This document shows positions 1-5,054 of a stretch of 7,476 bases of DNA, in pieces. A program made the translations under genes and the position numbers. Every line of letters begins with the position of its first letter. Position 1 is the stretch's first letter. Under the pieces are notes generated by a model. It had not been told where the DNA came from. It made no database searches and saw nothing but the letters and a program-made list of their open reading frames with translations. Source of the DNA: Gemmatimonadota bacterium (GTDB lineage: Bacteria > GCA-2686955); assembly GCA_002686955.1 (NCBI GenBank), contig NYZA01000253.1:1-7476 (forward strand), read 5' to 3'.

Positions 1-1
1 C

Positions 2-64
2 GCGGCCCTGGTCGAGGCGGCCGCCGCGGTCAGCCTGGCGGTGGTGATCTTCTTCATGTTCTGA
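2..64 (+). CDS. C-terminal tail of a small hydrophobic (membrane) protein, 5' truncated by the window
   Basis: Only the last 20 codons are visible, ending in TGA at 62-64. They read AALVEAAAAVSLAVVIFFMF, which would be a terminal transmembrane helix. The stop overlaps the speD start by one base (TGATG), so the two genes are probably translationally coupled. In many bacteria, genes for SpeD, membrane spermidine-synthase-like proteins and K+ channels sit beside a small DUF350 (YjfL-type) membrane protein. The AALVEA-then-helix pattern would suit the end of that family, but 20 residues cannot establish it. That this is a real coding tail is fairly likely from the spacing; the family assignment is a guess from context. 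Confidence 0.5.
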   Translation, partial: AALVEAAAAVSLAVVIFFMF

Positions 65-396
65 TGGCAAGAAAGAACCTTCTCTTCGAGCTTCATGGTG
101 GCTCCGCTCCGGATATGCGGGGGGGTGAGCTCGTGGCGGCATTGCGCTACGTCGCTCACAGAGCGGGACTCACCGTGCTTGCGTCACAATTCCATGATTT
201 CGCGCCGAGGGGCGCCACCGCCGCCCTACTCCTCTCTGAGAGCCACCTGACGGCGCACACCTGGCCGGAGGAACGCCACGTGGCCGTGGACCTCTTCACC
301 TGTGCCGGCGAGACCGATGCCGGCGAGGTCGAATCCGCACTCTCGGCCGCACTCGGGCCCGAAGAGATCGAGATGCGCGAAGTCTCCCGTCGATGA
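64..396 (+). CDS. speD: S-adenosylmethionine decarboxylase proenzyme, pyruvoyl-dependent (SpeD, prokaryotic class 1b)
   Basis: A 110-residue protein of the short SpeD family, which decarboxylates S-adenosylmethionine to give the aminopropyl donor for polyamine synthesis in the cytosol. The signature is LLSESHLTAHTWPEE at residues 56-70. Self-cleavage is expected between Glu59 and Ser60, turning Ser60 into the pyruvoyl group. His65 and Cys80 keep the spacing of the processing and proton-donor residues known in the Thermotoga and Bacillus enzymes (Ser63, His68, Cys83). FHDFAPRGATAA at 43-54 is the usual segment before the cleavage site, and AVDLFTC at 74-80 follows it. Length is slightly below the usual 115-130. 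The start overlaps the upstream stop, with no strong Shine-Dalgarno, and the stop overlaps the aminopropyltransferase start by 4 bases. Some SpeD homologues have been reported to act as arginine or ornithine decarboxylases, so the substrate is likely but not proven. Confidence 0.95.
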   Translation: MARKNLLFELHGGSAPDMRGGELVAALRYVAHRAGLTVLASQFHDFAPRGATAALLLSESHLTAHTWPEERHVAVDLFTCAGETDAGEVESALSAALGPEEIEMREVSRR

Positions 397-2045
397 GCGT
401 TCGCCGCCACGGGGGTCGCGTGCTCGCGCTTTCGATGTTCGTCATGGGGGCATGCGGATTGATCTACGAGTACACCCTCGGCGTGCTCGGCAACCACCTT
501 GTGGGAACGAGCCATGAGCAGATCTTCGTGGTGATCGGTCTCATGATGTTCTCTATGGGAGTCGGATCGGCGCTACAGCGGGCGCTCCATGTGGACCTGA
601 TCGATCGATGGCTGGCCATCGAGCTGGTGTTGGGTCTGGCCGGCGGATTGAGTGTGATCGGGATCTACGCCGCCTTCGTCTACACCGCGAGCTATCGGCT
701 CTTGATGTACGGAGCAGCGTCGCTCCTCGGCGTGCTCATCGGTATGGAGATTCCCCTGCTGATCCGCATCAACCAGCGGTATTCCTCCAGCCTGAGCGCC
801 AATCTTTCGGACGTGCTCTTCATGGACTACGCGGGCTCTTTGGCGGGGGCGATGCTCTTCGCTTACGTGCTCCTCACCCGCTTCACCATGTTTCGAATTG
901 CGCTGGTGCTGGGAATGGTGAACGTGGGGCTCGCGGCGATCGGCATCGCGTATTTCTGGCCTCTGATCCGGCGGCGCCGCCTCCTCTCTACCGCTGCCGG
1001 CGCATCGATCGTCGTGCTTATCGCTTTCATGGCGCGCGCGGACCCGCTGATGGCCACCTTCGAGCAACGCTGCTTTCGCGACCCGATCGTGGCCAGCGAG
1101 ACGACCGAGTACCAACACCTGGTCGTCACCCGCCGGGACGAACGAGTCCATCTCTACATCGACGGCAACCTGCAGTTTTCGTCGGTCGACGAGCGGATCT
1201 ACCATGAAATGCTCGTGCACCTGCCAATGATCATGGCGCGCGCACGGCAACGGGTCCTGATCCTCGGCGGAGGCGACGGACTGGCCCTCAGAGAGGTGCT
1301 GCGTTACGGCGATGTGGAGCAGGTCGTTTTGGTCGATATCGACCCGCGCATGACCGAGCTGGCCTCCACGCAAGCCGATCTCGTTCGACTGAACGAAGGC
1401 GCGTTCCACGATGCGAGAGTGCAGGCGCTGGAGGCGGCGGGGATCGGAGCGACAGGCAACACCGAGATTTGGCGCGAGGCGAACGAGCCATTCGAGCTCG
1501 GGGAGCGCTCGCAGGCTCGGCTGGCGCGCGTGAGCGTTCTGAATCTCGACGCCGACCTCTTCTTGCGCAATGCGGCCGGGCTTTTCGATGTCGTGCTCAT
1601 CGATTTCCCCGACCCCACCACGGTAGAGACCGCCAAGCTCTACTCGCGCGGCTTCTACCGAAACGTCGTCGCCCACCTCGCTCCGGGGGCCACGGTCGGC
1701 GTGCAGTCGACAAGCCCATTTCACGCCCGCGAGGTCTTTCTCTGTATCGGTGAGACACTCCGAGCCGCCGGCTTGCGGATCTTGCGATATCATCAAAACG
1801 TTCCGAGCTTCGGTGAGTGGGGATGGCATCTTGCCTGGCTGCCCGGCCCCGACGAGAAGAGCATGCGCGAACGACTCGGCCAGATCCGACACCTTCCGAT
1901 CGAGACCACTTACGTCACTCCGGAGCTCCTACGGGCATCGGTCGTCTTTGGGCGAGATCGATTGGCAACCGGCGACATCCGGCCCAACACCAAGATGCGG
2001 CCCGTCATCTTGGACTATCACCGCCGCGCCTGGAAGAGCATCTGA
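393..2045 (+). CDS. membrane-anchored spermidine-synthase-like aminopropyltransferase
   Basis: A 550-residue protein made of a membrane domain plus a spermidine-synthase-like domain. Hydrophobic segments lie near residues 9-32, 43-62, 74-98, 102-123, 146-164, 166-190 and 197-214, giving about seven helices. The catalytic domain begins near 239 (YQHLVVTR) and has the DERIYHEMLVHLP stretch (266-278), the nucleotide-binding ILGGGDG loop (290-296) and the acidic VDIDP end of the next strand (314-318). The catalytic aspartates are Asp404 and Asp407 in IDFPDPTT, where classic SpeE has DSTDP. SFGEWGWHLAW (472-482) is also typical. The expected reaction is transfer of aminopropyl from decarboxylated SAM, the product of the gene before it, to an amine acceptor at the membrane. 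The acceptor is unknown. Oddity: about 37 residues (344-380) are inserted between LNEGAFHDARV and VLNLDADLF, which are normally almost adjacent. The ATG overlaps the speD stop by 4 bases. Confidence 0.9.
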   Translation: MSVRRHGGRVLALSMFVMGACGLIYEYTLGVLGNHLVGTSHEQIFVVIGLMMFSMGVGSALQRALHVDLIDRWLAIELVLGLAGGLSVIGIYAAFVYTASYRLLMYGAASLLGVLIGMEIPLLIRINQRYSSSLSANLSDVLFMDYAGSLAGAMLFAYVLLTRFTMFRIALVLGMVNVGLAAIGIAYFWPLIRRRRLLSTAAGASIVVLIAFMARADPLMATFEQRCFRDPIVASETTEYQHLVVTRRDERVHLYIDGNLQFSSVDERIYHEMLVHLPMIMARARQRVLILGGGDGLALREVLRYGDVEQVVLVDIDPRMTELASTQADLVRLNEGAFHDARVQALEAAGIGATGNTEIWREANEPFELGERSQARLARVSVLNLDADLFLRNAAGLFDVVLIDFPDPTTVETAKLYSRGFYRNVVAHLAPGATVGVQSTSPFHAREVFLCIGETLRAAGLRILRYHQNVPSFGEWGWHLAWLPGPDEKSMRERLGQIRHLPIETTYVTPELLRASVVFGRDRLATGDIRPNTKMRPVILDYHRRAWKSI

Positions 2046-2050
2046 TCGTG

Positions 2051-3058
2051 ATGACCTTGCGTTTTCGATTCTCCCGGATCTGGCACCATCCGATGGGGCT
2101 TCTCGCACTCGCGGTGCTGCTTTTCGTCGGTCTGGGCTCGATCGGAATGTACGCCCTAGAGTCGGATCACGACATCAGTTCGTGGCCTGACGCGATCTGG
2201 TATTCCTTCGTGACCATGACCACGGTCGGTTACGGCGACCTTTTTCCGAAGACCGGAATGGGCAGAGCTCTGGGGATTGTCCTGATGGTTCTGGGAGTTG
2301 GTGTACTGGGCATGTTCACGGCGAATGTCGCCAGCTTGCTCGTGGAAAAAGCGATGAATAAAGACGAAGGCCTCGAGCAGATCGATGACATCAATCATTA
2401 CCTCGTTTGCGGCTGGAACAGCCGAGCCGAGCAGGTGGTCGATGAGCTGGTCCACCGCCTTCATGGGGTCACGACCGTCGTGGTCGTAGCCGATATCGAG
2501 CATACGCCGGTTCATCATCACTCTGTTCGCTTCGTTCAGGGAGATTCGACCGACGAGCGGGTGCTCAGAAGAGCCAACGTCCACAAAGCGAAGGCGGCAC
2601 TCATCCTATCGGCCGACACCAAGGGGAGCTCCGCCGACGCATCGGCTGTCTTGACCGTGTTGACGATCGAGAGCATCAATTCCGATGTCTACACCTGTGT
2701 GGAGCTTCAAGACGAGACCAATGCGCAACACTGCCGGCGGGCAAATGCCGATGAAATCCTGGTCAGCGGACACATGACTTCGAAGCTCCTCGCCAGCTCG
2801 ATTCTCGACCCGGGAAGCGCACAGGTGCTGTCCGAGTTGGCCACGGGAAGTGTCGGCAATAGCCTCTACCGAACACCGGTCGCGCCCGATCTCGTCGGAA
2901 GCGGATTCGATGAAGCGTTGGCATTGTTTCGCGATCGCCACAATGCGGTCTTGCTGGCCGTCCAGCACCAGGGGCGGCTGCTCATCAATCCGAAATCACA
3001 TACAATGGCGACCGGCGACCATCTCTTCGTGATCGCCGAGCGACCACCGAAATCATGA
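2051..3058 (+). CDS. two-TM potassium channel with cytosolic RCK (TrkA-N/TrkA-C) domain, MthK/Kch type
   Basis: A 335-residue ion channel subunit, expected to form tetramers in the inner membrane. TM1 is about 14-35, the pore helix about 47-57, the K+ selectivity filter is TTVGYGD at 57-63, and TM2 is about 73-98. A RCK_N Rossmann domain runs from about 115 to 240. It starts HYLVCGWNSRAEQ, with GW in place of the usual second glycine, as I recall for MthK. It includes FVQGDSTDERVLRRANV (161-177) and DEILVSGHMTSKLLASS (234-250). A RCK_C ligand-binding domain (about 270-331) ends with TGDHLFVIAE. The frame is open upstream inside the preceding gene, but homology begins at this ATG. GTG at 2048 is one codon earlier and better spaced from GGAAGAG (2032-2038), so the exact start is uncertain by one residue. 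It lies 5 bases after the aminopropyltransferase stop and overlaps the M55 gene by 4. The gating ligand is unknown. Confidence 0.93.
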   Translation: MTLRFRFSRIWHHPMGLLALAVLLFVGLGSIGMYALESDHDISSWPDAIWYSFVTMTTVGYGDLFPKTGMGRALGIVLMVLGVGVLGMFTANVASLLVEKAMNKDEGLEQIDDINHYLVCGWNSRAEQVVDELVHRLHGVTTVVVVADIEHTPVHHHSVRFVQGDSTDERVLRRANVHKAKAALILSADTKGSSADASAVLTVLTIESINSDVYTCVELQDETNAQHCRRANADEILVSGHMTSKLLASSILDPGSAQVLSELATGSVGNSLYRTPVAPDLVGSGFDEALALFRDRHNAVLLAVQHQGRLLINPKSHTMATGDHLFVIAERPPKS

Positions 3059-3855
3059 AGATCTACATCAGCGCCGACATCGAGGGAATCGCGGGCATCG
3101 CGCACCCGAGCGAGACCGACAAGAGCAAGGCCGACTACGGGGAGTTCGGTAAGCGCATGACCAAGCATGTGTCGGCGGCTTGCCAGGCGGCGGTCGAGGC
3201 GGGTGCGCACGAGATCTTGGTCAACGACGCGCACGACACGGGGAGGAATATCCTCCACGATGACCTCCCCCAATGCGCCAGGCTCCTGCGCGGGTGGAGC
3301 GAGCATCCGCTGATGATGGTGCAGGAGCTCGACGAGAGTTTCGACGCAGTGGCCATGTTGGGCTACCACGCCAGAGCCGGGTCGGGGGGCAATCCGCTGT
3401 CCCACACTCTTTCCAGCGCCCGACTCGACGAGATGCGAATCAATGGAAGAGAGGTGGCGGAGTTTCACCTCTACGCCTACGCGGCCGCGTCGCTCGGCGT
3501 ACCCGTCGTATTCGTTTCGGGCGACGAAGAGCTCTGCCGCGATGTCCATGAAGCCAATGACAACATCGTCACCGTCCCCACCCTCGAAGGGATCGGCGCG
3601 TCGGTCATCGGCCGCCACCCCTCAATCGTCGAAGAGGAGATCCGCGCGGGCATTAACCGGGCACTCCGCGGCGATCTGAACGAGTGCGAACTGAATCTGC
3701 CCGAGCGATTCGTGCTCGAGTTGAGCTACACAAGGGCGAGCGAAGCCTACAGGGCGTCGTTCTACCCCGGCGCGGAGCTCGCCGACACGCGACTGCTACG
3801 ATTCGAGACCGGCGAGTACTTCGAAGTTTTGCGCGCGCTGACTTTCGTGATCTGA
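3055..3855 (+). CDS. M55 family zinc D-aminopeptidase (DppA-like)
   Basis: A 266-residue cytosolic metallopeptidase of family M55, close to the usual length of about 270. The family member best known is Bacillus subtilis DppA, which removes N-terminal D-amino acids such as D-Ala from short peptides. The N-terminus MKIYISADIEGIAG carries Asp8 and Glu10, matching zinc ligands of DppA. VNDAHDTGRN (57-66) supplies His60, LGYHARAG (102-109) supplies His105, and NPLSHTLSS (113-121) supplies His117, the likely catalytic histidine. The last acidic ligand should be Glu133 or Glu136 in INGREVAE. No signal peptide is seen. The ATG overlaps the channel stop by 4 bases, making this the last gene of the operon. 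Its stop lies one base from the stop of the convergent matrixin gene. B. subtilis dppA sits in a dipeptide transport operon; no transporter is present here, so its substrate may relate to the polyamine or channel genes. That link is inference. Confidence 0.93.
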   Translation: MKIYISADIEGIAGIAHPSETDKSKADYGEFGKRMTKHVSAACQAAVEAGAHEILVNDAHDTGRNILHDDLPQCARLLRGWSEHPLMMVQELDESFDAVAMLGYHARAGSGGNPLSHTLSSARLDEMRINGREVAEFHLYAYAAASLGVPVVFVSGDEELCRDVHEANDNIVTVPTLEGIGASVIGRHPSIVEEEIRAGINRALRGDLNECELNLPERFVLELSYTRASEAYRASFYPGAELADTRLLRFETGEYFEVLRALTFVI

Positions 3856-3856
3856 T

Positions 3857-4459
3857 CTACTCCCCCGGGTAGAGTTCCCTCAAACACGCTTCGTCGGAAT
3901 CGGCGAGCTCCTCGTTGATCACGATGAGATTCATCACCGACTCCGGGTCGCTCGAGTGCCCCAATCCCAGGGCATGGCCGAGCTGATGGAGTGCAATGGC
4001 CATGAGCGACAGTTCGCCCCCGCCACAATCCCACAGGTCATCGAGAGTGAACGCGGCATCAGCCTCTCGCCCCGGCGGCCCATATACCCACACTTTGGCG
4101 ATTTGACCCACGTCGAGTGCCTTGAACTTCAGGTGCTGAACGCCGTCCCCAAAAAAGAGATGCCCGACCGCGCGCTCCTCGAATCCACCGAACCCGAACG
4201 AGAAAGCCGACCCCTCGACCGAGCTCCACGCTCGCGCCGCATCGGCGATCACGAACAGCTCAGATGCGCCGGGGCAGGCCGGCGTGCCGTCCCGATCGAC
4301 CGTGAAAACGGCCGGTAGCTCGTCGCCGGAATAGGGTGTGCCGAAGAGGTTGCAATCACCGGCTCCGGCGAAATCGGTCCGCAAGGGACAGATCCACGCC
4401 GCCGACGCGAGAGTGGCGTGGAATCCAAGACAGGCGAGCAGAAGACATTTGCTGAGCAT
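3857..4459 (-). CDS. secreted matrixin-like (metzincin) protein with HQxxHxxGxxH, possibly inactive
   Basis: A 200-residue exported protein of the matrixin/metzincin type. Residues 1-20 look like a signal peptide (LLLACLGFHATLASA, cleavage likely after ASA at 18-20). The pattern DRDGTPACPG (55-64), followed by AARAWSSVEGSAFSF (74-88), is typical of bacterial matrixin-like proteins. The zinc site is ALHQLGHALGLGH (156-168) with ligands His158, His162 and His168, followed by the Met-turn region SVMN (Met176). The catalytic Glu of HExxH is Gln159 (codon CAG, one base from GAG). The zinc fold should survive, but peptidase activity is expected to be strongly reduced. The mature part has five cysteines (24, 36, 62, 145, 192). 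A TTG start ten codons upstream (4487-4489) is possible, but this ATG has a Shine-Dalgarno 6 bases before it and places the signal peptide at the N-terminus. Its role is unknown. Confidence 0.85.
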   Translation of the reverse strand: MLSKCLLLACLGFHATLASAAWICPLRTDFAGAGDCNLFGTPYSGDELPAVFTVDRDGTPACPGASELFVIADAARAWSSVEGSAFSFGFGGFEERAVGHLFFGDGVQHLKFKALDVGQIAKVWVYGPPGREADAAFTLDDLWDCGGGELSLMAIALHQLGHALGLGHSSDPESVMNLIVINEELADSDEACLRELYPGE

Positions 4460-4465
4460 TGGGAT

Positions 4466-4474
4466 CACCTTTCC
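4466..4474 (-). promoter_or_regulatory. ribosome binding site of the matrixin-like gene
   Basis: On the minus strand GGAAAGGTG stands 6 bases before the ATG ending at 4459. It decides between that ATG and the in-frame TTG at 4487-4489, which lies upstream of this site. The remaining 85-base gap between this gene and msrA shows no convincing terminator or promoter. A GGCGCC palindrome is present but has no U-run after it. Confidence 0.65.
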
Positions 4475-4544
4475 GTCGTATGGTATCAAACCCTAACGTG
4501 GACGTCTCGGCGCCACCTTCAAAACTCAGCGGCACATCGGAATC

Positions 4545-5054
4545 TCATTTCACACCCGGACACGCAATTTCCGTTCCCCCCAGGCCGCAGTAGCCCAGCG
4601 GGTTCTTGGACAGATAGTGCTGGTGGTACTCCTCGGCCATGTAGAACTCGGCCGCCGGTTCGATCTCGGTAGTGATCAACGGATACCCGGCTTCACCCAA
4701 TGCAGCCTGGTACGCCTTTCTCGACAGCAGAGCCAGCTCAAGCTGCGCGTTCGAGGAGTAATAGATCACGGAACGATACTGTGATCCGACATCGTTTCCC
4801 TGGCGCATGCCCTGTGTAGGGTCGTGGTTCTCCCAGAAGAGGCGGAGCATCGATTCGTAGTCGGTTTCGCGTGGATCGAAAACCACACGCACGACCTCGG
4901 CATGGCCGGTACGACCGCCGCAAACCTCTTCATAGCTGGGATTGGTCGTCGCGCCGCCGCTGTAACCGACCGCGGTTTCGGAAACACCATCGGCGACCTG
5001 GAACACACGCTCGGCTCCCCAAAAGCACCCCATGCCGAAAACAGCGACTTCCAT
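4545..5054 (-). CDS. msrA: peptide-methionine (S)-S-oxide reductase MsrA
   Basis: A 169-residue cytosolic repair enzyme that reduces the S epimer of methionine sulfoxide, free or in proteins. The active-site motif GCFWG is at residues 9-13, with Cys10 as the nucleophile. Other family marks are YSGG (31-34), GHAEVV (50-55), NHDPTQ (76-81), GSQYRS (90-95) and EEYHQHYL (141-148). The C-terminal [17 protein letters not shown] carries Cys156 and Cys165, matching the resolving cysteines of the E. coli-type enzyme recycled by thioredoxin. The frame is open 16 codons further upstream, but that stretch overlaps glnS and has no family similarity. This ATG follows a perfect Shine-Dalgarno. It is downstream of glnS with 5 bases between stop and start, so co-transcription is likely. 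Confidence 0.97.

Follow-up and report, generated by a model that had tools for sequence, protein, structure and literature searches.

A SpeD, membrane aminopropyltransferase and K+ channel gene run in a Gemmatimonadota bacterium, probably the tail of a PspA-containing operon

The stretch of DNA analysed here (the window) is a whole contig of 7,476 nt (C253) from a Gemmatimonadota genome (4.28 Mb, 84.5% complete), and it begins with five plus-strand genes in close succession. Our preferred reading, which we hold with rather more belief than doubt, is that this run is the downstream half of a PspA/DUF4178/DUF350/7TM-aminopropyltransferase operon, i.e., an envelope-stress cassette with its own K+ channel, in which SpeD feeds a membrane-anchored aminopropyltransferase (APT) acting on an acceptor that is probably not putrescine, and from which the M55 peptidase gene is probably functionally separate. 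Operons of this kind are already published; this one differs by an unusual insertion of SpeD and by the appended K+ channel and M55 genes.

We picture the cassette working as follows. SpeD would decarboxylate S-adenosylmethionine (SAM) in the cytosol, and the APT would move the aminopropyl group to an acceptor, probably not putrescine, at or in the membrane. DUF350, along with PspA, DUF4178 and a 486-aa protein encoded upstream, would form the membrane-associated part of the cassette. The RCK K+ channel would be its dedicated effector or sensor, gated by a ligand from the cytosol, perhaps the aminopropylated product and perhaps something else. The M55 peptidase, probably co-transcribed, would most likely be a peptide-salvage enzyme attached in this lineage. 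An earlier note on this DNA had joined SpeD, the APT, the channel and the peptidase into one system, and our results keep its SpeD/APT core, its envelope-stress setting and its K+ channel, which is recurrent, while the M55 peptidase, which does not recur, drops out. With donor enzyme, transferase and channel encoded in overlapping or near-touching frames, the run is a compact system for probing the acceptor and the channel ligand together.

The gene run and its upstream neighbour

The genes of the run, and the one that follows it, are:

2..64 (+): C-terminal fragment of a DUF350 gene, 20 residues (AALVEAAAAVSLAVVIFFMF, then the stop TGA at 62-64), cut by the contig start
64..396 (+): speD (PF02675, 1.8e-24; TIGR03330)
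393..2045 (+): membrane APT (NF002956), with a spermidine-synthase domain preceded by seven N-terminal helices
2051..3058 (+): K+ channel, 2-TM plus RCK (TrkA_N) domain (PF07885, 2.5e-19; PF02254, 2.3e-14)
3055..3855 (+): M55 (DppA-like) metallo D-aminopeptidase (PF04951, 1e-87)
3857-4489 (-): matrixin-like (M10) metallopeptidase, convergent with the M55 gene

The earlier note had described the five plus-strand genes as tied together by three overlaps between stop and start codons plus a single gap of 5 nt, and the junctions, read directly from the sequence, bear this out. One base is common to the DUF350 stop (TGA 62-64) and the speD start (ATG 64-66), giving TGATG. The speD stop (TGA 394-396) overlaps the APT start (ATG 393-395) as ATGA, as does the channel stop (TGA 3056-3058) with the M55 start (ATG 3055-3057). 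The gap of 5 nt lies between the APT stop (TGA 2043-2045) and the channel ATG at 2051; the channel could also start from a GTG at 2048. Because the matrixin-like gene is convergent and ends directly past the M55 stop (3855), the M55 gene is the last of the run. A promoter scan found no sigma-70-like promoter in 1-4600, and the terminator-like matches are few, weak and inside genes (6 vs 2.5 by chance, both strands). The run is presumably co-transcribed. The matrixin-like gene also matches, weakly, a model for myxosortase-dependent metalloproteases.

The fifth gene, which the earlier note's title left unnamed, encodes a DUF350 (YjfL-type) membrane protein. A search of the same genome for DUF350 found a gene at the very end of another contig (C213), with two PF03994 repeats (6.8e-50) and a frame that breaks off at ...LLPNSSLSHEIA. 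The 20 residues at the start of the window align with the C-termini of eight DUF350 homologues, with some 6 residues lost where the assembly breaks. The end of C213 and the start of the window have no exact overlap, so their junction rests on DUF350 homology. Since only these few residues part the two pieces in all eight homologues, C213 almost certainly adjoins the window upstream.

Toward the window, C213 encodes a 161-aa protein, PspA (5.7e-42), DUF4178 (2.6e-07), a protein of about 486 aa and DUF350. Because the contig ends inside the same DUF350 and has PspA and DUF4178 upstream of it, we take the run to be the tail of a PspA-DUF4178-DUF350-7TM-APT operon, and these two upstream genes favour the envelope-stress setting that had earlier been suggested. 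Neither the 161-aa nor the 486-aa protein has a Pfam match. The 161-aa gene lies next to pspA, where the published operons have a CesT/Tir-type gene, but profile support for CesT/Tir and DUF2170 was weak or absent (the profile match to a CesT_Tir_1 protein was weak, P 0.018), and we assign it firmly to neither.

For comparison we used 46 other loci that encode a membrane APT, 22 from public and other genomes and 24 from a survey of 386 genomes, annotated with profiles built for the survey. A full DUF350 is present in 23 of them. The nearest relative among the searched genomes (G001, family level) has an APT 61-62% identical to that of the window and, in the channel's place after it, an AsmA-like gene, which is a point against our preferred reading. 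Ahead of DUF350, most cassettes encode a protein of roughly 480-530 aa that is shorter in some loci (L034:14895-16355, with homologues in 19 of the 46). It has an N-terminal membrane segment, an aromatic/glycine-rich conserved C-terminal region (WRRD..GSFW.FYG.Y.FMR..FWG), a terminal GGK and no Pfam match.

A published type of PspA operon combines a 7TM-fused spermidine/spermine synthase with DUF350, DUF4178 and a lipoprotein, and a related group comprises PspA, a glutathionylspermidine-synthetase-like ATP-grasp protein, a K+ channel and DUF350, with variants that include an AdoMet decarboxylase and a polyamine oxidase (PMC11237479, where Li et al. 2019 is the source given for the gene linkages of AdoMet decarboxylase). 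Like the CesT/Tir-PspA second group of that paper, the operon studied here has PspA, DUF4178, DUF350 and the 7TM-APT in one run (across one assembly break, inside DUF350), with another conserved protein standing where that group has the lipoprotein. Unlike that group, it has SpeD between DUF350 and the transferase, a K+ channel and M55 appended, and a first gene (161 aa) that is not firmly CesT/Tir. The third group in the same paper shares the K+ channel, DUF350 and, in variants, the AdoMet decarboxylase, but it has an ATP-grasp ligase where the window has the 7TM transferase.

SpeD and the aminopropyltransferase

SpeD is a class 1b S-adenosylmethionine decarboxylase by TIGR03330 (81.4 bits, cut-off 75.65). 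Aligned with the T. maritima enzyme (1tlu), it has both the processing site LSESHLTAHTWPE (LSESHLTxHTWPE motif) and the catalytic Cys (DLFTCAG). SpeD homologues with neofunctionalised activity, which use ornithine or arginine and not SAM, exist (PMC10407285), but the overlap of speD with the transferase gene favours SAM as the substrate here.

The APT passes NF002956 (PRK03612; 591 bits, cut-off 472). Its AlphaFold model (mean pLDDT 85) has helices at residues 7-37, 42-64, 69-97, 101-130, 135-163, 166-187 and 195-226, and the best Foldseek match of the model is 1uir_A (E 1.4e-15), a spermidine-synthase fold. Across 17 aligned homologues, 34-61% identical to the window's APT, the residues D266-E267, Y270-H271-E272, G294-D295-G296, D317, D386 and D404xxD407-P408 are invariant. 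These are the positions that catalysis and binding of the donor should require, so the predicted enzyme appears catalytically intact, which agrees with the earlier picture of SpeD adjoining a working membrane APT. The alignment also places an insertion of 35-40 residues inside the transferase domain (approximately 344-382; window 1422..1538, +). It is mostly disordered in the model (pLDDT <50 at residues 348-376) and confined to one clade (the window, L038-L043, L049 and L050).

The two genes could have an everyday explanation, in which SpeD and a membrane-anchored SpeE supply the cell's spermidine and the neighbouring genes are incidental. They are the only SpeD and the only APT found in a search of the genome, the catalytic residues of the APT are intact, and the NF002956 family is named 'polyamine aminopropyltransferase'. 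However, neither an AR-fold (PF02784) nor an AAT-fold (PF01276) ornithine/arginine decarboxylase was detected in this genome, and the apparent lack of a putrescine-forming PLP decarboxylase argues against ordinary putrescine-to-spermidine synthesis; such absences are provisional because the genome is 84.5% complete. Moreover, the linkage with DUF350, PspA and the channel recurs far above chance. Li et al. 2019 are said to have found clusters of SpeD, a membrane-fused spermidine-synthase-like protein and DUF350, and such fusions reportedly failed to complement a spermidine synthase deletion, which also counts against a plain spermidine supply. Those clusters resemble the window in SpeD, membrane APT and DUF350, and are not known to include a K+ channel or an M55 gene. 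We consider the spermidine-supply explanation unlikely.

The preferred reading is instead that the APT acceptor is probably not putrescine. A non-putrescine acceptor fits the evidence but is unproven, because the genome is incomplete and the decarboxylase search covered PLP enzymes only. Pyruvoyl enzymes, uptake or another route could still supply putrescine. A flavin amine oxidase gene lies alongside the transferase in seven loci (L049, L050, L053-L055, L142 and L143), an arrangement that resembles the polyamine-oxidase variant in PMC11237479.

The placement of speD inside the cassette is seen in this window only: among the 23 other loci with a full DUF350 there is no SpeD nearby, and in four of the 23 without one, SpeD is 1.6-3.7 kb away. 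PF02675 (class-1 SpeD) has no match in 13 of 21 transferase genomes, including the whole chromosomes G064 and G070 (G001, G006, G049, G061, G064-G071 and G073; loci L035, L036, L038, L040, L043-L050 and L052). Decarboxylated SAM is therefore not proven as the general donor of the APT family. Class 2 AdoMet decarboxylase (PF01536) likewise has no match in the cassette genomes, but it has none in the control genomes either, which makes this negative uninformative. In the APT homologues that were aligned, the donor site keeps its residues, although PF02675 detects no class-1 SpeD in these 13 genomes.

The K+ channel

The channel combines a 2-TM pore, whose filter reads TVGYGD, with a cytosolic RCK (TrkA_N) domain, a layout like that of MthK, a Ca2+-gated K+ channel with a 2-TM pore and a single RCK, and it aligns with MthK end to end (9.4e-28). 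The acidic Ca2+ ligands in the RCK of MthK (D184, E210 and E212) are partly kept: the D and the first E align, but the second E (E212) is Q in the window's channel.

A K+ channel lies near the APT in 9 of the 46 other loci, against 0.34 expected at a density of approximately 0.46 channels per Mb, the value obtained from 19 of the surveyed genomes. All nine are among the 23 loci with a full DUF350, and none is among the 23 without. The corresponding Poisson value of 1e-10 is too extreme and overstates the linkage, because the loci are partly interdependent. Pfam detects an ion-channel pore in eight of the nine linked loci, in most of them together with an RCK/TrkA-type domain; L050, the ninth locus, contains the TrkA_N part alone, and the pore is beside it. 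Four of the linked channels (L041, L135, L136 and L149) are on the same strand as the APT and at most 600 nt downstream of it.

The linked channels also cluster phylogenetically, away from the unlinked ones. On a tree of 27 channels, ten of them linked, there are 3 label changes vs a mean of 8.3 when labels are shuffled, and none of 500 shuffles was as low. The sister of the window's channel is the one linked to the cassette in L135 (support 95/92). Because the tree has several long branches and some short rows, we claim clustering of the linked channels and not a single origin. The channel is a statistically real, recurring accessory of the DUF350/APT cassette in distant bacteria, so this gene passes the earlier note's own test of conserved co-occurrence, which M55 fails.

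What gates the channel can be framed in more than one way. The earlier note had the APT's polyamine-like product tuning it, which we read as block or gating, with M55 processing a D-amino-acid or amide conjugate of that product. Block of inward-rectifier K+ channels by polyamines is well established for animals and speaks for such a model, as do the adjacency and overlaps of the genes and the recurrence of the channel linkage. However, the RCK domain suggests a ligand that binds to this domain from the cytosol and not block of the pore, and M55 is missing from 46/46 other loci and from 19/20 cassette genomes, so we regard this model as very unlikely. A second possibility is a dedicated family of RCK channels within the DUF350/7TM-APT cassette, in which either the aminopropylated product or a membrane state under the cassette's control does the gating. 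We offer it as a speculative idea of low probability; if true, a product- or membrane-gated channel would be a bacterial circuit linking aminopropyl chemistry to K+ flux.

The M55 peptidase

The last gene of the run matches its family strongly (PF04951, 294 bits). Aligned over its full length with B. subtilis DppA (1hi9), it keeps the zinc-ligand motifs DxE, DAHD, GYHA, SHT and E. However, it falls under the NCBIfam DppA cut-off (153.6 vs 430) and would therefore belong to an M55 subgroup other than that of DppA.

Comparison with other genomes separates this gene from the channel. No M55 gene lies near the APT in any of the 46 other loci, and one occurs anywhere in just 1 of 20 other transferase genomes, at 34% identity and away from the cassette. 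The closest relatives of the window's M55 in 290 genomes (29-52% identity) are flanked by unrelated genes, e.g., for transporters, a DegP-like protease or an isoaspartyl-peptidase-like protein, and in the loci examined (1.5-kb flanks) none has SpeD, an APT or a relative of the window's channel beside it. A paper search on M55 gene clusters returned nothing relevant. Given this lack of recurrence in loci and cassette genomes, we rejected M55 as a component of the system, contrary to the earlier note. It is probably a passenger, co-transcribed yet functionally separate, and the survey thus sets a real partner (the channel) apart from a chance neighbour (M55).

M55 might still be a genuine lineage-specific effector, which would take part in an envelope response as a D-aminopeptidase by trimming modified peptides or those derived from peptidoglycan. 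Its ATGA overlap with the channel gene, its intact metal-binding motifs and its standing as the sole M55 found in the genome are all consistent with that role. Against this, the arrangement recurs nowhere, and a single case is indistinguishable from a chance insertion, which makes an effector role quite improbable in our view. For the passenger reading, the closest relative (52% identity; L073, about 2292-3230, -) is informative: it overlaps an isoaspartyl-peptidase/asparaginase-like gene, which suggests that the M55 subgroup of the window serves peptide salvage.
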